Source of the DNA: an uncultured Caulobacterales bacterium | Lineage (GTDB): Bacteria; Pseudomonadota; Alphaproteobacteria; Caulobacterales; Maricaulaceae | Assembly (NCBI GenBank): GCA_937929915.1 | Contig: CALFUN010000001.1 | Coordinates: 1 to 64,000 of the forward strand | DNA length: 64,000 nt | Reading direction: 5' to 3' | Part shown: positions 1 through 64,000 of the stretch, piece after piece | Layout: every line of letters begins with the position of its first letter | How positions within the stretch are numbered: position 1 is the first letter of the stretch | Notes under the pieces: generated by a model | Database searches by the model: none | Told to the model about the DNA's origin: nothing | Seen by the model: only the letters and a program-made list of their open reading frames with translations | Translations under genes and position numbers: made by a program

Positions 1-69
1 CTCCGTAAAATTCGTAAAGTCTATGTGGCGGCAAAGCCGCGCTTTATCAAGGTTTATAGGTGATAAAAT

Positions 70-585
70 CTATCTACGTTCATATAGCCGCACCGTAAAA
101 GGAAAGTCATCCTTTTCGCCCTGCGGGTGAGATGTTTCAGAGATCATCACCCATTCATCTGCGCGGATGGCGGGGAAATGCGCATCGCCTTCAATCATGG
201 CATCAACTTCGGTAATATACATGCGGTCACAATATTTCATGAGCGACGCATAAAGCTTGGCCCCGCCAATCAGCATAATTTCATCCGCGCCCGTGAGACC
301 CGCCAGTTCATAGCCGCGCCCAATCATTGCGTAGACATCGGTGAAAACCTCGGCTTTGGGCGCTTTATAATTTGGATTGCGGGTCAATACTAAGTTGGGC
401 CGCCCCGGCAAGGGGAACGGCAAACTCTCCCATGTCACGCGGCCCATCAAGACGGGATTACCTAATGTGGTCGCCTTAAAAAACTTCAAATCCGACGATA
501 AGCGCCAAGGCAAATCGCCATCTACGCCAATTACGCCATTACGGGACTTGGCAACAATGAGAGAGAGTTTAGGATTCGTTGTCAT
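70..585 (-). CDS. folA: Dihydrofolate reductase
   Basis: Reduces dihydrofolate to tetrahydrofolate with NADPH in the cytosol, regenerating the cofactor consumed by thymidylate synthase. The 171-residue length is normal for bacterial DHFR. Visible motifs are the substrate loop GVDGDLPW (about 20-27), the acidic catalytic position Asp32 in SSDLKFFK, the NADPH-binding LMGRVTWESLP (46-56) and IGGAKLY (106-112). The start is an ATG with a divergently transcribed transporter 44 bases away. thyA lies 1.2 kb upstream on the same strand. The two genes are adjacent in many bacteria, but here they are separated by a transporter and a repeat-flanked nuclease gene. Family assignment is secure. Confidence 0.97.
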   Translation of the reverse strand: MTTNPKLSLIVAKSRNGVIGVDGDLPWRLSSDLKFFKATTLGNPVLMGRVTWESLPFPLPGRPNLVLTRNPNYKAPKAEVFTDVYAMIGRGYELAGLTGADEIMLIGGAKLYASLMKYCDRMYITEVDAMIEGDAHFPAIRADEWVMISETSHPQGEKDDFPFTVRLYERR

Positions 586-629
586 GGAAATGAGGTTACA
601 GGAACCGCTGCATTCCGTATAGGGAAACC

Positions 630-1172
630 ATGTCCACTTACGCCAAAAAAGAACCGCCTAAAACAAGTCTTAGATATTTCAAATATACGCTCGTCTATAT
701 TCTGCTCATCCCCTTTATCAATTGGAGCTTTACTTGGGCGCCAATGGTGGAACTACCGGGACTGACGGCTTGGGCGTTTAACCCTGTCACAATAGTTACA
801 GGGCTTGTGCTCGTCGTGCGAGACTTCGCCCAGCGCGAGATTGGCCATGAAGTCCTCATCGCTATGGCCATCGCGCTTTTCCTAACTTACGTGACAAGCG
901 GCGGAGCTTTAGCCCTTACTAGCGGCGCAGCCTTCCTGATTTCTGAACTTGTGGATTGGGCCATGTTCACCTTCACAAAGTATAAACTTTCAACCCGTGT
1001 TCTGCTCTCTTCGGCCATCGCCGCGCCTATTGACACCACCGCCTTTCTCTATGGCGCGAGCTTTATTCGCGACGCGCAATTCACCGTGCCCAATGTCGTT
1101 ATGTCCGTCGGCGGAAAAATGTTCGGCGCAGTCATCATTTGGTGGCTGATTAGGCGAAGGCTGGAGCAATAA
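630..1172 (+). CDS. VUT-family membrane transporter (queuosine-precursor-transporter-like)
   Basis: A 180-residue protein with about five or six hydrophobic segments, typical of the VUT family (PF02592), whose characterised member YhhQ imports queuosine precursors. The diagnostic stretch is VVRDFAQREIGHE (about 63-75), followed by a helix-rich core containing ISELVDWAMF and a late APIDTTAFLYGASF segment. The ATG is preceded by AGGGAAA at a suitable distance. It is transcribed away from folA. The substrate cannot be told from sequence: queuine or preQ precursors are the family precedent, but short VUT proteins also include uncharacterised members. No queuosine biosynthesis gene is seen in the window. 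Confidence 0.75.
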   Translation: MSTYAKKEPPKTSLRYFKYTLVYILLIPFINWSFTWAPMVELPGLTAWAFNPVTIVTGLVLVVRDFAQREIGHEVLIAMAIALFLTYVTSGGALALTSGAAFLISELVDWAMFTFTKYKLSTRVLLSSAIAAPIDTTAFLYGASFIRDAQFTVPNVVMSVGGKMFGAVIIWWLIRRRLEQ

Positions 1173-1178
1173 AGACAA

Positions 1179-1308
1179 TGTCATTCCGACACACGGCGAA
1201 GCCGTGACGGAACCCATGCCTTAAATATAGCGTCTAACGAAAAATCGTATTTAGGCGAGATAGCAAGACATGGGTACTGTCAATGCTTCGTATTGTGTCG
1301 GTATGACA
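1179..1308. repeat. REP-like palindrome pair, left of GIY-YIG gene
   Basis: Two 43-base palindromic elements in opposite orientation, at 1179-1221 and 1266-1308, with a 44-base spacer. Each folds into an inner stem (CACGGC/GCCGTG around a GAA/TTC loop, or CAATGC/GTATTG in the diverged copy) and an outer 5-bp stem (TTCCG/CGGAA or TACTG/CGGTA). Stem changes are compensated on both sides, so the structure is maintained. A matching pair lies on the other side of the nuclease gene at 1652-1788. Confidence 0.85.
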
Positions 1309-1333
1309 AGACTTATAGAGTTTTGCCAAGAAC

Positions 1334-1633
1334 CTAATCCAATGTATGATACAATTCAGACCAATTAGGATTATCTTTTTCTATCAGCTTAACGCGATAA
1401 GCTCGCGTTTTTGATTTAATCAGTTTTTCACAATCAATCGCGGTTTCAGCACTTTCAAATTGCTCAAAGTAAACGGGCCGCGTGATGTTATATTTTGCCG
1501 TATGGCTTTTGGAATGAATTTTGTTTTTATGTTCCCAAACTCGCCCCGAGAGGTCGCTCGTCAGGCCCGTGTAGATAGAGCCATTTTTATAACTGGCCAT
1601 GATATAGACGAAAAATTGCTTTTCATTTATCAT
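1334..1633 (-). CDS. GIY-YIG nuclease domain protein
   Basis: A 99-residue single-domain GIY-YIG endonuclease-like protein of the small UPF0213/YhbQ-like type. The motif appears as FVYIMASYKNGSIYTGLTSDL (N-terminal, split VYI...IYTG), followed by the conserved Arg in SGRVWEHKN and a Glu in the RPVYFEQFESAETAI region. The ATG at 1633 is chosen over an upstream in-frame start because the extra 14 codons lie inside a palindromic repeat. The gene stands alone, bracketed by REP-like pairs at 1179-1308 and 1652-1788. Its role is unknown; it may cut or mobilise the repeats, by analogy with RAYT transposases, but that is inference. Confidence 0.85.
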   Translation of the reverse strand: MINEKQFFVYIMASYKNGSIYTGLTSDLSGRVWEHKNKIHSKSHTAKYNITRPVYFEQFESAETAIDCEKLIKSKTRAYRVKLIEKDNPNWSELYHTLD

Positions 1634-1651
1634 AGAGATTTTGTCTTTCTC

Positions 1652-1788
1652 TTGATACCGACCCAATGTTTGCACGGAAACACAAGCTAGTACCCACGTC
1701 TAATTTATGCACCTTAGCACGAATTTTTATCTTGTTGAGATATCAAGGCATGGGTCCCGTCACGGCTTCGCCGTGTGTCGGGATGACA
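1652..1788. repeat. REP-like palindrome pair, right of GIY-YIG gene
   Basis: A second pair matching the left one. A diverged copy lies at about 1652-1700, with recognisable ATACCGAC and AGTACCCACGTCT ends. A well preserved 43-base copy lies at 1746-1788 and is the inverse of 1179-1221 with two mismatches. The gap between the copies is 45 bases, close to the 44 in the left pair. The segment 1738-1788 is also a direct repeat of 1258-1308, including flanking GAGATA.CAAG, so the whole unit is repeated on both sides of the gene. Confidence 0.8.
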
Positions 1789-1805
1789 TAACTTGTATTA
1801 AGTAT

Positions 1806-2600
1806 CTAAACCGCAACCTTCCCCGCAATATGCGGATGCGCCTCATAACCAAATATCTTCACATCGGCATAGGTGAAGTCATAAATGCTCTTCACATCCT
1901 TATTCAGCTTCAAGCGCGGCAGCGGCTTGGGCTCGCGCGATAGCTGCTCCTTCACCTGTTCAAAATGATTGGAGTAAATATGGGCGTCTCCAAAGGTGTG
2001 GACGAAATCTCCGACTTTTAACCCGCAAACTTGCGCAATCATATGGGTGAGCAGCGCATAGCTCGCGATGTTAAAGGGCACACCAAGGAAGATATCGGCG
2101 CTGCGTTGATAGAGCTGACAGCTAAGTTTTCCATCCGCCACAAAAAACTGAAACAGGCAATGACAAGGCGGCAGGGCCATATCATCGACATCGGCGGGAT
2201 TCCAGGCGCTGACGATATGACGGCGGGAATGAGGATTGTTTTTAATGGCATTGATGACCTTATCAACCTGGTCAATCACCGCGCCATCTGGCCCTTCCCA
2301 GCGCCGCCATTGTTTCCCATAAACAGGGCCAAGGTCGCCATTTTCATCGGCCCATTCATCCCAAATGCGAACGCCATTCTCTTTAAGGTATTTGATATTG
2401 GTATCCCCTGCGAGGAACCAGATGAGCTCATGGACGATAGATTTTTTGTGCAACTTTTTAGTCGTGACCATCGGGAAGCCTTTGGACAGGTCAAAGCGCA
2501 TTTGATAGCCAAACACCCCGCGCGTGCCAGTTCCTGTACGATCCATACGGTCCGTGCCGTTTTCCATAACATGAGAAAGAAGGTCGAGATATTGCTGCAT
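1806..2600 (-). CDS. thyA: Thymidylate synthase
   Basis: Converts dUMP and methylenetetrahydrofolate to dTMP and dihydrofolate, which folA then recycles. The 264-residue length and register match the E. coli enzyme: the phosphate-binding loop DRTGTGT is at 20-26 and the nucleophile is Cys146 in PPCHC. The folate/dUMP segment [17 protein letters not shown] (about 166-182) and the C-terminal [10 protein letters not shown] are intact. The ATG start is supported by the conserved N-terminal MQQYLDLL. It lies on the same strand as folA with the transporter/nuclease segment between them. Confidence 0.98.
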
Positions 2601-2642
2601 ACAAAGTCTCTAAACGCTTTTTAGCGATTCGGAAAACGCTGC

Positions 2643-3770
2643 TTAGAGTTCATCCACAACTGCGAGCATCGCGTCCAGCACCGCCGCACCCAAATCCGCA
2701 CTACGGTCAGGGCTCCAACCAAATTCAGCGTCGGAGGCATTGGCATTATCCTTGAACGGCATCTCTAAAGTCATAGCAAGGCAATCATAGGCATGGGCCG
2801 TATAATTGGTGCACATGGTGAGATTGGCTTTGCCGGGGGCCGTTAAAGGATAGCCGTGCTCGGTCTGAAAGTCTGGCGAGGCCGTTTTATAGGCTGACAG
2901 AAACGCCGCGAGATTATCGGCTTGTTTTTGCGTGTAACCCGGAATCCCTTCGGCACCTGCGATAAAATTATAAGGCAAGCTTTCATCGCCGTGCACATCA
3001 AGACAAAGATCAGGCTTAGCCGCATCCATCGCTTTGATGGTGTGATAAACTTCGGGCGCGGATTGTATGGTCGCCACGCCCCATTCGCGGTTCAGATTAG
3101 CCCCTGTTTCATTGGTGCGCAGGTTCCCGTTACGCCCACCATCAGGACACATATTCGGCACGATATGGAAAGTGGCTTTCTCGCGAAGCGCCATAGAGAC
3201 CTCATCTTCATCATCGAGCAGCCGCGATAAAAACCCTTCCATCCACCATTCTGCCATAGTCTCGCCGGGATGTTGACGCGCAATGACCCAGATGGTTTTT
3301 CCGCCTGTCCCAACAGAGAGGCAATCCATATCTTGGCCTTGAACGCTTTGGCCTAAAATTCGTAAAGACACATCCTTATGCATTGCGGCTTCAGCCACGA
3401 CATTAGCATGGCGATCCATTGGGTAAGGTGCAAAGTAAGCGTAATACACACTGTCATGCTCGGGCGTATGCTCAATAATGAGCTGACCTTCTACATAGCT
3501 TGTGCTATCCACCCGAAACCACGTCTCGCGGTCATAGCTGGCACAAGCGCGATAACCGTCCCACCCGCCTGTAAAAGCGGCATCTTTGGCATTTTCCAAA
3601 ACCATTTTTAACGGCTGACCTTTTGCGCCGCTAACACGGTAATAAAACCATTGGAAAAAATCAGAATTATTGTCGGGGCGAATAGCCAGCCGAATATCGG
3701 ACGGATCTTTCGCGTCGCGGACAATGATGTTTCCACCATCAAAGGCAGAGCTTATGTTTAAATTTATCAT
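2643..3770 (-). CDS. M14-family zinc carboxypeptidase (cytosolic-carboxypeptidase type)
   Basis: A 375-residue metallocarboxypeptidase with an N-terminal beta-sandwich-like domain (about 1-120) followed by the M14 catalytic domain. Zinc ligands are visible as H167 and E170 in RQHPGE and as H260 in LDVHGDE. The substrate-binding Asn-Arg is in ANLNREW and the catalytic Glu346 is in TLEMPF. This domain layout resembles the bacterial and eukaryotic cytosolic carboxypeptidases that trim C-terminal acidic residues. No signal peptide is seen, so a cytosolic place is likely. The gene lies between thyA and the arginine pair with no tight coupling to either. The natural substrate is unknown. Confidence 0.88.
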   Translation of the reverse strand: MINLNISSAFDGGNIIVRDAKDPSDIRLAIRPDNNSDFFQWFYYRVSGAKGQPLKMVLENAKDAAFTGGWDGYRACASYDRETWFRVDSTSYVEGQLIIEHTPEHDSVYYAYFAPYPMDRHANVVAEAAMHKDVSLRILGQSVQGQDMDCLSVGTGGKTIWVIARQHPGETMAEWWMEGFLSRLLDDEDEVSMALREKATFHIVPNMCPDGGRNGNLRTNETGANLNREWGVATIQSAPEVYHTIKAMDAAKPDLCLDVHGDESLPYNFIAGAEGIPGYTQKQADNLAAFLSAYKTASPDFQTEHGYPLTAPGKANLTMCTNYTAHAYDCLAMTLEMPFKDNANASDAEFGWSPDRSADLGAAVLDAMLAVVDEL

Positions 3771-3865
3771 AGGTAAGTCTGTTTTTTAAAGCCCGAATCT
3801 ACTGATTAACTCCGCTTAGTCCTGCGCCGACTCCCCGTCAACAACCTCACTCTGAAACACTATGG

Positions 3866-5008
3866 CTATATGTGTTCAAAATCATCAGGCGCAGAAGCTG
3901 CAGCTATTATCGCGCCCGGCACTTCGGGGGCGTCGAGGCCCTTCCAAAATACGCGCCATTGACCGTTAATCTGCATGCCGTCACAGCTCCCCATATACCA
4001 CTCATTAAAGGGGTTCTCCATGCGCGAGCGCCAAAAAAAGACTGGAATATCTGCGCACATCATATCCCAAATGTCGCGGGCAATGCCCTCACCTTGCGCA
4101 GCCTTGGACACCCAAAATTTTGAGAGATATGGCAAGCCTGCAAGCTGCGTAAATATAGCCCCGCCGCGATAACTTTCCTCAATGAATCCTTTATGTATTT
4201 TACTTCGTAAAAATATGGGCTTAATGGGTTTATTAAACGCCTCCTCTATCGAAGCTTTTAATCTAGCCTTATCGGTTCTCGCTAAGGTGGGTGTCGTCAT
4301 TATGGGCGCAGCGCGACGCAACATGGTTCCCGAGCCTTTTGTTGTGAAGAGTTCAGCCAAGAGGTTGAGCGGAGAAGCCATCACATAGACAGCTTGATTG
4401 CCTTTTTCTTTTGCAAGGTCTTTTACCAAGCTAATGAAACGAGATTGTCCTAGCGTCAGCTCATCAGGATTTAACGTCTCTTCCAATGTGTCAATATTAA
4501 CAAAGGATAGACGTTCATCCCCGCGGCTCAGCCCGCCAGACGGTTGCAGAAAAATAACTTTATTAGGCTTTAGCTCCGTGACTATCTTTTGCAGGCTCAT
4601 CTTGCTGCGCCGCTCAACCATTTCCAAAATAGGTATGATGCCTTTTCGGGCTTTTTGTCGAACCTCAGGAATAAGTTGATAGCTGGCTGTGTTCAGCTTA
4701 GCGGTTTTAACGGAGGCTTGCTCTAAATCTTTTGCTAGTCGCTGCGCCTGAAATTTTACGGATGTGCGGTCATCATCAAGCGCACCCACCAGCAAGACGG
4801 GCGAAAGCTCCAAATCCGACAAAATTTTCAAATTAGAAATCAACGCTTCTAGCAAAGGGTTCTTCAAACAGCGCGGATCAATCACAATCAAGGCAAAGCG
4901 TTCAGCCTCTTGCGCGGCAAAGAGTTCTGCATAAAACTTTGCCTCTTTCGTCGCGCCAATAGCTGAGAGACTGCGCAGCACTGTGTCTCTTATGGCTGGC
5001 CCGCTCAT
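3866..5008 (-). CDS. N-acetylglutamate synthase (degenerate kinase domain plus NAT domain)
   Basis: Probably makes N-acetylglutamate from glutamate and acetyl-CoA, the first step of arginine synthesis. Residues 1 to about 230 form an amino-acid-kinase fold, still recognisable from LAELFTTKGSGTML (217-230), but the usual N-terminal kinase lysine and glycine motif is replaced by LIVIDPRCL (40-48). Residues about 235-370 are a NAGS-type acetyltransferase (formerly DUF619): the CoA loop QGEG is at 305-308, followed by FFWRSRMENPFNEWY and WRVFWKG. Bifunctional synthase/kinases of this layout are known in Maricaulis and Xanthomonas; this 380-residue version looks synthase-only. It overlaps the upstream deacetylase gene by four bases, so the two are translationally coupled. 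Confidence 0.8.
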   Translation of the reverse strand: MSGPAIRDTVLRSLSAIGATKEAKFYAELFAAQEAERFALIVIDPRCLKNPLLEALISNLKILSDLELSPVLLVGALDDDRTSVKFQAQRLAKDLEQASVKTAKLNTASYQLIPEVRQKARKGIIPILEMVERRSKMSLQKIVTELKPNKVIFLQPSGGLSRGDERLSFVNIDTLEETLNPDELTLGQSRFISLVKDLAKEKGNQAVYVMASPLNLLAELFTTKGSGTMLRRAAPIMTTPTLARTDKARLKASIEEAFNKPIKPIFLRSKIHKGFIEESYRGGAIFTQLAGLPYLSKFWVSKAAQGEGIARDIWDMMCADIPVFFWRSRMENPFNEWYMGSCDGMQINGQWRVFWKGLDAPEVPGAIIAAASAPDDFEHI

Positions 5009-6102
5009 GGCATAAGTCCCGACAGGGCTCGGCCATAGGCCTTTGTAGCAGTGATAAGATGCGCCTCACTGACATATTCATTCGGCTTATGGGCCTGTTC
5101 AACATCGCCGGGCCCGTAAACCACGACATTTAAGCCCGCTTCGGACAGCATTGCCGCCTCAGTCCAATAAGGTAAATCCACGATAGGTGTATTTTCAAAA
5201 ACGGGTTTAAAACTTTGCGGGTTTTGCGAGTCAAAAGGTTCAAAGGCCACAATTGTGTCCATAACCGCCTCTGGCGTGACATCACGGGCAATACGGAGCA
5301 TATCCTCGCGCCGCGCGGCGACATTATCTCCAGGCGGCGGTCTCATAGACGCCCAAAGCTTTGAACGCGTCGGAATGACATTATAGGACCCATCATTTTC
5401 GATATCGCCAATGTTTAGACATAGGCCTTTATAAGGGGCGTTCCCAAACCCACGATGAACATCCCCATAGTCACCCCAAGCTGCGGCTAATCTCGCGGCT
5501 TGCAGTAAGGGCCGCTCCGTCACATCGGCCAATGAGCTATGCCCGCCTTTTCCTGTAAAAAGTGCATTCATCGCAAGCATTCCACGATGGCGCCGCCCAA
5601 CCTCACAACAGGTCGGCTCACAGACAATGGCCGATTTTGCGCCGCCATAATGTCCGCGTTTAATCACCGCTGGCATAACTTCGCTGCCATGTTCTTCATC
5701 GCCCGAGAAAAGAATAGCGACATCCTTGGGCTTAAGGGTTTCCATTGCGCCCAATATGCAAGCCGCAGCACCTTTAATATCGCTTGTTCCGAGGCCGATG
5801 ACGTTCCCATTGCCGCGTTTCATATGCAGCGGATCAGATATCCACCCCTCCCCGCTGGGCACTGTATCAATATGCACATTCAGCAAGATTTTGGGGTCTC
5901 CCCACCGCGCCATGACATAACCGCTTTCTGTTTTCCCGCGAGAGCGCGTAACCCGCTCAACGATAATTTCATCAGGGTTATGCGAAGCCAAAGCCCCACG
6001 CAGAAACTCGACACAGGCCATCTCATCACCTGAGCCGTTACGCGTATCAAATGCGACTAACTTTTCTAGCCATGATAAAATTTGCAGTAAGTTATGGGTA
6101 AT
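5005..6102 (-). CDS. argE: Acetylornithine deacetylase-type M20 peptidase
   Basis: A zinc hydrolase that probably removes acetyl from N-acetylornithine or a related acyl amino acid in arginine synthesis. Motifs are VHIDTVP (metal His and catalytic Asp), GTSDIKG (bridging Asp), SGDEEHGS (catalytic Glu) and CEPT. The first in-frame ATG is at 6021, but the 27 upstream codons read ILSWLEKLVAFDTRNGSGDE, exactly the expected M20 N-terminus. No ATG, GTG or TTG is found there. An ATT at 6100-6102 lies six bases after AGGAG, so ATT initiation is proposed, giving 365 residues. It overlaps the synthase gene by four bases. The specific substrate (acetylornithine versus acetylcitrulline or others) is not proven. 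Confidence 0.82.
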   Translation of the reverse strand: MTHNLLQILSWLEKLVAFDTRNGSGDEMACVEFLRGALASHNPDEIIVERVTRSRGKTESGYVMARWGDPKILLNVHIDTVPSGEGWISDPLHMKRGNGNVIGLGTSDIKGAAACILGAMETLKPKDVAILFSGDEEHGSEVMPAVIKRGHYGGAKSAIVCEPTCCEVGRRHRGMLAMNALFTGKGGHSSLADVTERPLLQAARLAAAWGDYGDVHRGFGNAPYKGLCLNIGDIENDGSYNVIPTRSKLWASMRPPPGDNVAARREDMLRIARDVTPEAVMDTIVAFEPFDSQNPQSFKPVFENTPIVDLPYWTEAAMLSEAGLNVVVYGPGDVEQAHKPNEYVSEAHLITATKAYGRALSGLMP

Positions 6103-6229
6103 CGGGAACTCCTAATAGGGAATCATTATAAACGCATTACCGTTACATCCAAGCATCACATGTTAAAAATGTGGCTACTCTTCATAAACCCTCGACATGG
6201 TTAGATAAAATTTGACCTTGAAAACAGAG

Positions 6230-6244
6230 TTAAGACAGGATTAA
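6230..6244. promoter_or_regulatory. Putative CtrA box upstream of DUF2853 gene
   Basis: TTAA-N7-TTAA (spacer GACAGGA), the consensus bound by the cell-cycle regulator CtrA in Caulobacter relatives. It ends 33 bases before the DUF2853 start, where it would overlap a promoter. Binding is inference. Confidence 0.5.
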
Positions 6245-6277
6245 GAATAGCTATTAGCTAATTGTGTGGAGGAAAGT

Positions 6278-6574
6278 ATGGCTAAAGCAGTAGACTATAT
6301 GGATGATGTAAAACGCTACGATACAGACGCAGATGAAGACGCCATCCAGAAAATTTGTAACTATCTCGGCGTTGCGCTCTTGAATAAAGATGCATCGCTT
6401 GTCTCTTGTTCAGACGAAACGGAGCGCAATCGCGTGCGTGACGGTTATTGCGCCAAAAAACTAAGCATGGACACAGCCGCAGCAGAAGCCGCTATTGAGG
6501 CTGTCTGTCAGCAAATGAAGAGCGACAAGTTTAAACAGCGTGTCACATTCTATCACCTACTAACAAAACAGTAG
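6278..6574 (+). CDS. DUF2853 family protein
   Basis: A 98-residue, small soluble protein of the DUF2853 family, common in Alphaproteobacteria and without assigned function. Recognisable features are the N-terminal DYMDDVKRYD and the helical segment KKLSMDTAAAEAAIEAVCQQM near the C-terminus. The ATG at 6278 is chosen because GGAGGAAAG precedes it at ideal spacing; an upstream GTG would cover the ribosome-binding site. It is monocistronic: a terminator follows at 6612-6640 and a putative CtrA box sits just upstream. Function cannot be inferred from context, although cell-cycle control is suggested by the box. Confidence 0.85.
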   Translation: MAKAVDYMDDVKRYDTDADEDAIQKICNYLGVALLNKDASLVSCSDETERNRVRDGYCAKKLSMDTAAAEAAIEAVCQQMKSDKFKQRVTFYHLLTKQ

Positions 6575-6611
6575 ATTCAATATTAAAATAACTGACTCCC
6601 ATCAGTTTGAG

Positions 6612-6640
6612 GGTCACGTCTTTGGAGGTGGCCTTTTTTA
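6612..6640 (+). terminator. Rho-independent terminator after DUF2853 gene
   Basis: GGTCAC (6612-6617) pairs with GTGGCC (6628-6633) with one G-T pair, followed by six T residues. It separates the DUF2853 gene from the ssrA promoter. Confidence 0.65.
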
Positions 6641-6669
6641 TTGGAATCTTAGGCGCGAGCCCCTATATA
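6641..6669 (+). promoter_or_regulatory. Putative sigma-70-type promoter of ssrA
   Basis: TTGGAA (6641-6646) and TATATA (6664-6669) are separated by 17 bases, placing the transcription start near 6676, just upstream of the tmRNA acceptor piece. Confidence 0.55.
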
Positions 6670-6675
6670 GAGTAA

Positions 6676-7000
6676 GCTAGCTTGCTAGCTATGATGATAA
6701 ACGCGCTTGTAATAAGCGGACTGGACCCGGGGGCGGTACCCGGCGGCTCCACCATAAGCACACTGATTTCGGTGTGTTTTTGATGGGGCCGAAATAGGAT
6801 CGACAGACGTCTAAAGAAGTTAGCTTTCATCCGATTTGGTATCGTTAAATGCCTAATTTTAGTAATTGCAAATGACAATTCTAATGAAGAGTTCGCTCTC
6901 GCCGCCTAAGCAGCGCGATCAACTCGCACTTTAACTCCTAGGCCGTCATACGCCTAGGCGGGCTTCGGTAGGTAGCTGGCAACAGAAACCTACCACTTTT
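6676..7000 (+). ncRNA. ssrA: tmRNA, circularly permuted two-piece form
   Basis: Rescues stalled ribosomes and tags their products for proteolysis. The gene is permuted. The acceptor piece comes first and contains a T-arm (CCGGG/CCCGG around a 7-base loop, 6727-6743), the acceptor strand CGGCTCC (6744-6750) and ACCA (6751-6754). A 30-base spacer follows, then the coding piece starting at GGGGCCG (6785-6791). The two strands form a 7-bp acceptor stem with the alanine-identity G-U at the third pair. The tag ORF begins at GCA 6868 and encodes ANDNSNEEFALAA with stop at 6907-6909, very like the Caulobacter tag. A CCTAGGC/GCCTAGG hairpin and a final GGTAGGT/ACCTACC hairpin (6967-6994) close the molecule. 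Ends are approximate. Confidence 0.95.
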
Positions 7001-62272: not shown

Positions 62273-64000
62273 CTATTCCAACCCCGCCAGCGCTTCATTG
62301 AGCTTTGTAAGCTCGGCGCTATAGGCGTTTCGGCGTTCATTTTGCAAGGCGACGACCTTTTCAGGTGCTTTGGCCATAAAAGCTTCATTGCCGAGCTTTT
62401 TATCGATTTTCTCAATCTCGGCGTTCACCTTAGCAATTTCTTTGGAGAGGCGTGCTTTCTCTGCGTCCAAATCAATCAGGCCGTCAAGCGGTATAGCGAA
62501 ACTCACCCCGTCCACGACAGTTTGCAGCGCGCCTTTAGGAACCTCGCTGGCGACTTCAACGCCGTCAATACGGGCCATACGCTCTAGGTTATCTGTAAAT
62601 TTCAAGAGGCGCGGATCAAGAGTATCCGCCAGCATCAGCAGCGGCGCCTTCTTGCTTGGCGGAACATTCATTTCCGCACGCACAGACCGAATGGCAGTGA
62701 TTAAACGCACCAACCAATTAATATCTTCGGCAGCCTCTGCATTAATCAAGGCCTCCTCTAAGTCTGGCCATGCCGTAATAATGAGCTTATCTGCGCGAGA
62801 CGGCGCCGTATTGGCCCATAATTCTTCGGTGATAAATGGCATAAATGGGTGCAAGAGCTTGAGAATTTGATCGAGCGCCCATGCGGCTGTGGCTTGCGTT
62901 TCAATCTTGGCCGCACCATCACCGCTCATAATTGGCTTAATCAGTTCCAAATACCAATCGCAATATGTACCCCACGCGAATTTATAGGCTGCATCCGCGG
63001 CGGCATCAAAGCGGTAATCTTCGATAAATTTAGTCACGTCTTTGGCGGTTTTAACAGCCTCGGACACAATCCACTGATTGACAGATTGCGTGCAAGATTT
63101 AGGGTCAAAACCACTTTGTGAAACACAGCCATTCATCTCCGCGAAGCGCGCTGCATTCCAAAGCTTTGTGCCAAAGTTTCTATACCCTTCAATACGTTGC
63201 GTGGATAACCTGACGTTACGCCCCTGCGCCGCCATCGCCGCCATGGTAAAGCGCAGCGCATCCGCGCCGTAAGTCTCAATCAGCTCTAGCGGGTTGACAA
63301 CATTGCCTTTGGACTTGGACATTTTCGCGCCCTTTTCATCCAAAACTAGCGCATGGATATAGACATCTTTAAACGGCACTTCGCCCATAAAATGAATGCC
63401 CTGCATCATCATCCGCGCCACCCAGAAAAAGATAATATCAAAGGCGGTGACAAGGACAGAGCCAGGGTAAAACCGCTCAAGCGCCTCGGTATTATTAGGC
63501 CAACCGAGCGTGGAAAACGGCCAAAGGCCAGAGGAGAACCATGTGTCTAGGACGTCGGAATCCTGTGCAAGCGTAACTTTTATTTTAGTTGCGCGTTCAC
63601 CAACAGGCCCAGAGGCCACATAACTTACAACTCCAGCATTCAAATCAACTTCAACATCATCCCCATAGATTTTTTTAGCATTAAGTATGACATTTTCATT
63701 AGTTGCCCCGACAATAATTTGTCTGGGTTTACTAATATCATCATAGCCATTTTCATCTAACGCAGGCCCATACCAAGCCGGTATCCGATGACCCCACCAA
63801 AGCTGTCTTGAAATACACCACGGCTGAATATCGTGCATCCAGTTATCATAGGTCTTTTTCCAATTTGCAGGAATGAAACGGGTCGAGCCTTTGCCGTTGT
63901 TCGCAGTAGTGGTCCTCGGCACAGGGGCCGAGGATGACGCAGTATTAGCCGCGGATGACATATGATTTGACGCTCCCTCCTCGCCGTCACCCTCGGGCAT
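62273..64000 (-). CDS. valS: Valyl-tRNA synthetase, C-terminal part (runs off the window)
   Basis: Charges tRNA-Val; the window holds the last 575 codons and the start lies beyond the right edge. Visible are the catalytic-domain segment [31 protein letters not shown], the [13 protein letters not shown] strand and the second class I signature KMSKSKGN. The anticodon-binding domain follows ([13 protein letters not shown]), and a C-terminal coiled coil rich in Lys/Glu ends LNEALAGLE. The first 38 visible residues, up to NNGKG, are not conserved valS sequence and lie in an in-frame repeat-like insertion. Otherwise the enzyme looks functional. Confidence 0.95.
63887..64000 (-). repeat. Palindromic-repeat insertion in frame within valS
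   Basis: At least 114 bases inside valS that read [16 protein letters not shown]... and not conserved synthetase. The core is a palindrome, CCTCGGC (63914-63920) with GCCGAGG (63927-63933), preceded on the minus strand by GTCAT. A second GTCATCC start lies upstream at about 63954-63960. Such GTCATCCTCGG palindromes are common intergenic repeats in Alphaproteobacteria. The left end of the insertion is outside the window. Confidence 0.7.

Follow-up and report, generated by a model that had tools for sequence, protein, structure and literature searches.

What the locus studied here asks is whether a lone, small GIY-YIG nuclease gene and the palindromic repeats that frame it merely lie side by side or belong to one system. 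Throughout, the window denotes the whole stretch of 64,000 nucleotides that was analysed, and the features on which the question turns are listed below.

630..1172, + strand: putative Vut-family transporter gene (PF02592, E 1.1e-4, under the curated cut-off)
1180..1218, + strand: repeat A, whose TGTC tag starts at 1179; the outer stem has 5 bp and the inner one 6 bp, separated by a bulge, and a CCA tail follows
1269..1307, - strand: repeat B, the inverted partner of A, 30/38 identical to it
1334..1675, - strand: GIY-YIG nuclease open reading frame with a GTG start at 1675; the likelier start, ATG 1633, gives 99 amino acids
about 1651..1700, + strand: repeat C, a decayed copy whose closest copy is B
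1749..1787, - strand: repeat D, an inverted copy of A
1806..2600, - strand: thyA, thymidylate synthase (PF00303, E 7e-130), the neighbour by which the locus was recognised in relatives

The nuclease gene and the repeats beside it

The open reading frame between B and C/D is intact and encodes a protein with a GIY-YIG domain (PF01541, E 4.9e-12), in agreement with an earlier note on this DNA that had placed such a gene between palindromes. The protein has the invariant positions common to 13 relatives, and its relatives of solved structure are UPF0213 and UvrC only. Counted from ATG 1633, the start that we chose, the gene lies 17 bp from C and 26 bp from the end of B at 1307. An intron homing endonuclease was considered and rejected, as positions 900-2000 had no Rfam match at an E of 1 or below and TIGR01453 scored 18.3 bits against a cut-off of 56.05. 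As to the neighbourhood, a Vut-family gene, by reading, also adjoins the nuclease gene in one relative (G018), and a tmRNA gene with the tag ANDNSNEEFALAA is found at window 6662-7000.

Window-type repeats fold into a hairpin of two stems with an internal loop between them and a 3-nt terminal loop, and they end in a CCA tail; TGTC forms an unpaired tag at A, B and D. On both sides of the gene they make up an inverted pair with the tags pointing outward, and the gap between A and B, taken from CCAT end to CCAT end, is 52 nt. The outer copies, 1179-1222 (+) and 1745-1788 (-), are 42/44 identical as an inverted repeat, and B has the same skeleton as A and D, with 30/38 identities to either outer copy. 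Four palindrome copies had originally been claimed. Three of them, A, B and D, are clear hairpins of about 39 nt, whereas the fourth, C, is decayed, longer than the others and folds no better than its own shuffles; its likeness to B is beyond chance (local alignment; 0/1000 shuffles reach the score). For A and D, few shuffled versions fold as well (2 to 6 of 200), and the hairpin of B is no better than shuffles (57/200 and 45/200 as good on the two strands).

That the nested stems are maintained by compensating changes was likewise proposed in the earlier note, and this is borne out by five relatives, in which we compared 23 copies of 39 nt; these comprise all 39-nt matches to the pattern given below, and 22 of them lie away from the nuclease gene. 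Their outer stem has 5 bp and their inner stem 7 bp, and 93.5% of cells pair, with double-sided changes at 9 of the 12 stem pairs; pairing in slid controls drops to 28-39%. Across ten copies that come from the window or from three further thyA loci, 98% of the cells of the outer stem pair. The further claim, that the whole unit is repeated directly, fits only one of two readings. The stretches 1258-1308 and 1738-1788 are indeed 41/51 identical in direct orientation, but the flanks aligned in their entirety agree at 113/131 positions when inverted and at 101/130 when direct. The spacer alone fits the direct arrangement better (shuffles as good in 10/2000 cases direct vs 578/2000 inverted). Since the flanks align both ways and the spacer by itself favours the direct one, we do not choose between direct duplication and inverted symmetry. 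Elsewhere in the window, at 63910-63938, a plain-type hairpin with a GTC tag and a CCA tail lies within a long open reading frame; it may be there by chance.

Gene and repeat across loci

Relatives of the nuclease occur in 48 of the 60 genomes searched (124 matches, E up to 1e-5). We compared the flanks of two sets of loci, 110 of the 124 same-order matches and 73 loci from named genomes, among which 104 and 64, respectively, had full flanks of 350 nt. A test for repeats shared between the left and the right flank, which is blind to sequence type, detected a repeat common to both at 80/104 same-order and 48/64 named-genome loci. The corresponding control about 1 kb away gave 0/95 and 0/57, and flanks drawn from different loci shared a repeat in 9/400 (same order) and 34/400 (named) comparisons, the second figure probably being raised by related species. 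A strict detector, demanding GTC, followed by a hairpin with 7 or more Watson-Crick pairs if uninterrupted or 9 or more if interrupted, and then CCA, recovered repeats in both flanks at 26/104 same-order and 24/64 named loci, in one flank at 10/104 and 14/64, and in neither at 68/104 and 26/64. About 1 kb away it found repeats on both sides at 0/95 and 0/57 loci and on one side at 1 and 2, and with shuffled flanks on both sides at 0/104 and 0/64 and on one side at 1 and 0. The strict repeat nearest to the edge of the GIY-YIG match lies at a median distance of 40 nt (124 flanks).

The repeat on one side of a gene is, moreover, of the same kind as that on the other. Where both sides have a repeat (50 loci), the left and right 5' arms are on average 96% identical within a locus, against 51% between loci, and the 24 named both-sided loci fall into 14 from Pseudomonadota, 6 from Bacteroidota, 1 each from Ignavibacteriota and Chloroflexota, and 2 unplaced. 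The evidence for this anatomy and for the association of gene and repeat is strong. Many related nuclease genes of other bacteria have the same kind of frame, each made of its particular version of the repeat, and the nuclease and its repeats therefore probably act as a pair.

Repeat shape, too, clusters with the nuclease clade. On a nuclease tree of 92 columns and 73 rows (the loci with a strict repeat, one stop-containing row having been dropped), the label plain or bulged changes 5 times, as against a mean of about 15.5 after shuffling, with 0/500 shuffles as low; with this number of columns, and with 36 of the 70 inner branches open, details of the tree are unsure. The four rows nearest to the window (L009, L011, L013, L010) are all bulged, and since three of these nucleases (L009, L011, L013) sit at the same thyA locus as the window, part of the clustering reflects inheritance of the locus.

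The plain type of repeat, searched with up to two mismatches, has matches in 14 of the 60 genomes (control matches 0), and in 8 of the 14 a copy adjoins a GIY-YIG gene (G001, G007, G009, G016, G020, G028, G034, G041). The only two plain-type copies of G028 both lie beside the nuclease gene, and 13 of the 15 copies in G020 lie elsewhere. The remaining six genomes (G010, G018, G037, G049, G053, G057) have 1 to 11 copies and no adjoining GIY-YIG gene, and G049 and G057 have plain-type copies with no GIY-YIG match whatsoever at E up to 1e-5. Among the 12 genomes without a GIY-YIG match, the plain type was thus found in two and window-type repeats in none.

Dispersal of the repeats and history of the loci

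When the 60 genomes were searched with the window-type pattern GTCAYNCCGWCN{13,20}CRGNNVCCAT (control matches 0), matches were obtained in 11: 17 in G009, 15 in G018, 6 in G012, 4 in G016, 3 each in G006, G028 and the window's own assembly (G000), 2 in G010, and 1 each in G003, G011 and G037. We judge the single matches in G037, G011 and G006:C96, where no hairpin is seen by eye, to be chance, which leaves nine convincing genomes. Four of the nine (G000, G006, G010, G018) combine window-type copies with a GIY-YIG gene flanked by them; within the loci fetched, G003, G009, G012, G016 and G028 have no GIY-YIG gene flanked by the window type. Viewed from the repeats, 30 match loci, each extended by at most 1.5 kb in both directions, contain a GIY-YIG match in eight cases, three of them from the window, two from G010, two from G006 and one, about 1 kb off, from G028.

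Spacing was measured in 20 chosen stretches around window-type matches, with two substitutions allowed and gaps below 100 nt. These yielded 18 inverted pairs with outward tags, 17 of them spaced 50-55 nt and one 89 nt, and in L184 (113 nt), L186 (192 nt) and L192 (100 nt) all pairs are wider. One stretch of G009 (L183, G009:C3:372054-373839) harbors two window-type pairs with similar spacers about 745 bp apart, with another gene-sized open reading frame between them, for which no GIY-YIG match was reported.

The palindrome is therefore present in relatives and the gene-repeat association recurs at many loci, so that the proposal of the earlier note survives on both counts. As regards dispersal itself, copies are scattered in the relatives, but the window's own assembly matches at this site only, and a search of that assembly found no copy outside the window site. 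Its record lists 39 contigs, 91.68% completeness and 1.72% contamination. Contig C17, at about 219983-227041 (L068, L069), carries a diverged copy of window 1-7000 in pieces 66-82% identical, a block with DHFR, Vut-like, thyA, peptidase and tmRNA genes that brings a second thyA into the assembly. Either C1 or C17 may be misbinned, or the C17 block may be an old duplication; the FtsA of the window, which is single in this assembly and 81-83% identical to that of ten same-genus genomes, does not settle misbinning. Given the diverged copy on C17, the second thyA and the possible misbinning, the failure to find the repeat elsewhere in the assembly is weak evidence.

The locus could be followed across relatives by means of its neighbour thyA. 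Among the best 30 thyA matches, the nuclease gene is present at four loci (the window, G010, G006, G018), and window-type repeats accompany it at 4/4 of these and occur at 0/26 of those without it, one of which (L054) extends only about 150 bases past thyA. Hence the unit is missing at this locus in some relatives, a comparison that had been called for at the outset. A repeat scan allowing four substitutions at the thyA loci returned noise and was set aside. No clean empty site was found at the loci compared. On the 3' side of thyA, L039-L056 have differing sequences and apparent open reading frames between relatives, resembling an insertion hotspot.

Other groups present a mixed picture. Eleven of the 16 Bradyrhizobium-group loci occupy one site (L072, L074, L075, L081, L084, L087, L093, L095, L114, L121, L143) and four a second one (L082, L085, L096, L140), with L077 matching none. 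Among 11 Flavobacteriaceae loci, L115, L118, L122 and L131 share one site, L125 and L126 another, and L111 and L124 have common sequence on opposite sides of the gene; in 13 locus pairs of this family the genes are more than 80% identical along 239-258 nt and the outer flanks are unshared. In these two groups, then, the gene often stays at its inherited site and at times turns up at another one.

Explanations and known systems

We consider it fairly probable that the GIY-YIG nuclease and a repeat family recognised by it constitute one system. The repeat consists of an unpaired (C/T)GTC tag, a hairpin (bulged in the present case) and a CCA tail, often arranged in inverted pairs with the tags outward. 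The nuclease would most likely recognise the tag and hairpin of its own repeat type in single-stranded DNA, such as may be exposed on the lagging strand or in incoming transforming DNA, and would cut there; the copies beside the gene would be its nearest targets and might also mark or regulate the gene. The explanation rests on the anatomy, the compensating changes, the association across loci and phyla, the clustering of repeat shape, the joint presence and absence at thyA and the dispersal in relatives. Recognition, single-strand cutting and any part that the nuclease may play in copying the repeats are what we infer from them. Against the pairing we count that 5/9 genomes with the window type are without a flanked gene, G009 among them with its 17 copies, that in 6/14 genomes with the plain type no copy adjoins a GIY-YIG gene, that the window's own assembly has the repeat at this site only, and that the strict detector left both flanks empty at 68/104 and 26/64 loci.

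Three other explanations deserve weighing. The gene and its flanking repeats could be a mobile cassette, which would cut at the repeats and so move, or home, from one intergenic site to another, and their joint presence at 4/30 thyA loci, together with the 13 Flavobacteriaceae pairs of similar genes in unshared surroundings, would suit it. However, the 16 Bradyrhizobium-group loci, 11 at one site and 4 at another, look like vertical inheritance, a clean empty site was not found, and the region 3' of thyA holds other genes in relatives, so that we regard a cassette as rather unlikely. It is also conceivable that another enzyme spreads the repeats and that the gene merely settles or survives near them, as might be read from the genomes that have repeats and no flanked gene; the 2013 survey (PMC3733652) raised the possibility that transposases of other kinds mobilise repeats of this sort. 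A passenger would hardly account for a repeat type that is matched left and right of a given gene and varies from gene to gene, for the clustering of repeat shape with nuclease clade, or for the only two plain-type copies of G028 adjoining the gene, and we hold this explanation to be unlikely. Finally, the repeats could be terminators or attenuators serving the nuclease gene only, in keeping with the short median distance of 40 nt over 124 flanks; yet repeats of these types also occur scattered at sites away from the gene, where pairs mostly keep a fixed spacing, which renders a purely regulatory role very unlikely.

The pairing of nuclease and repeats that we prefer has counterparts among known systems. 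In REPIN-RAYT systems the enzyme gene is flanked by its own repeats and the repeats are dispersed as inverted pairs, both of which hold here, but the enzyme there is an HUH tyrosine transposase and the tag is GTAG, whereas here the enzyme is of the GIY-YIG type and the tag is GTC. The likeness to RAYT transposases and REP elements drawn in the earlier note extends to anatomy, with nuclease genes of several phyla commonly lying between repeats of their own type and repeats dispersed in relatives, and stops at the enzyme, which is GIY-YIG and not HUH.

GIY-YIG nucleases named Ssn were reportedly described in about 2025 as site-specific and single-strand-specific enzymes that cut cognate genomic repeats. 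As is said of Ssn, a small GIY-YIG protein here has a genomic repeat nearby, and the window nuclease probably works like Ssn. The window system is most likely a variant of one already described; the newness of a repeat-mobilising or repeat-maintaining nuclease, which had been put forward earlier, is doubtful, and in view of the Ssn report we do not claim the nuclease-repeat link as new. Among the titles and abstract openings of the matches listed, no literature link between GIY-YIG genes and these repeats was found, and PMC9465073, in its consulted part, mentions both terms apart without linking them.

The repeats themselves recall the CGTC-tagged REPs which, in the survey by Di Nocera et al. 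2013 (PMC3733652), are mostly tag-outward dimers, have CGTC, TGTC or CCTC as unpaired tag, are numerous in alphaproteobacteria, include the Neisseria dRS3 repeats as CGTC-1 and form four families with stems of 8-9 bp and loops of 4-5 nt, apparently without a dedicated transposase. Window repeats are like them in the unpaired CGTC/TGTC tag, the CCA tail and the tag-outward dimers. They differ from the single 8-9 bp stem and 4-5 nt loop of that account in having two stems separated by a bulge and a 3-nt loop, on which ground we place them outside the four families as given there. The CGTC-tagged REPs are moreover interspersed, as is the window type in relatives, while in its own, possibly misbinned assembly it occurs at this site only; and where those REPs are described as apparently lacking a transposase of their own, the window type has a GIY-YIG gene as its partner. 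It is possible, albeit tentative, that the dedicated enzyme which the CGTC-REP superfamily seems to lack is the GIY-YIG nuclease, and that this nuclease drives the copying of repeats as tag-outward dimers, which would make it REPIN-RAYT-like, of independent origin, with an unrelated nuclease and in several phyla.

The 2013 survey (PMC3733652) did not settle whether the widespread CGTC REPs are served by an enzyme and, if so, by which one. The loci presented here tie small GIY-YIG genes to CGTC-like repeats by position, by type and by clade, and they do so in several phyla. If this pairing is already in print as Ssn, what is added is a bulged repeat family, a near-fixed spacing of its dimers and a test by presence and absence at thyA.
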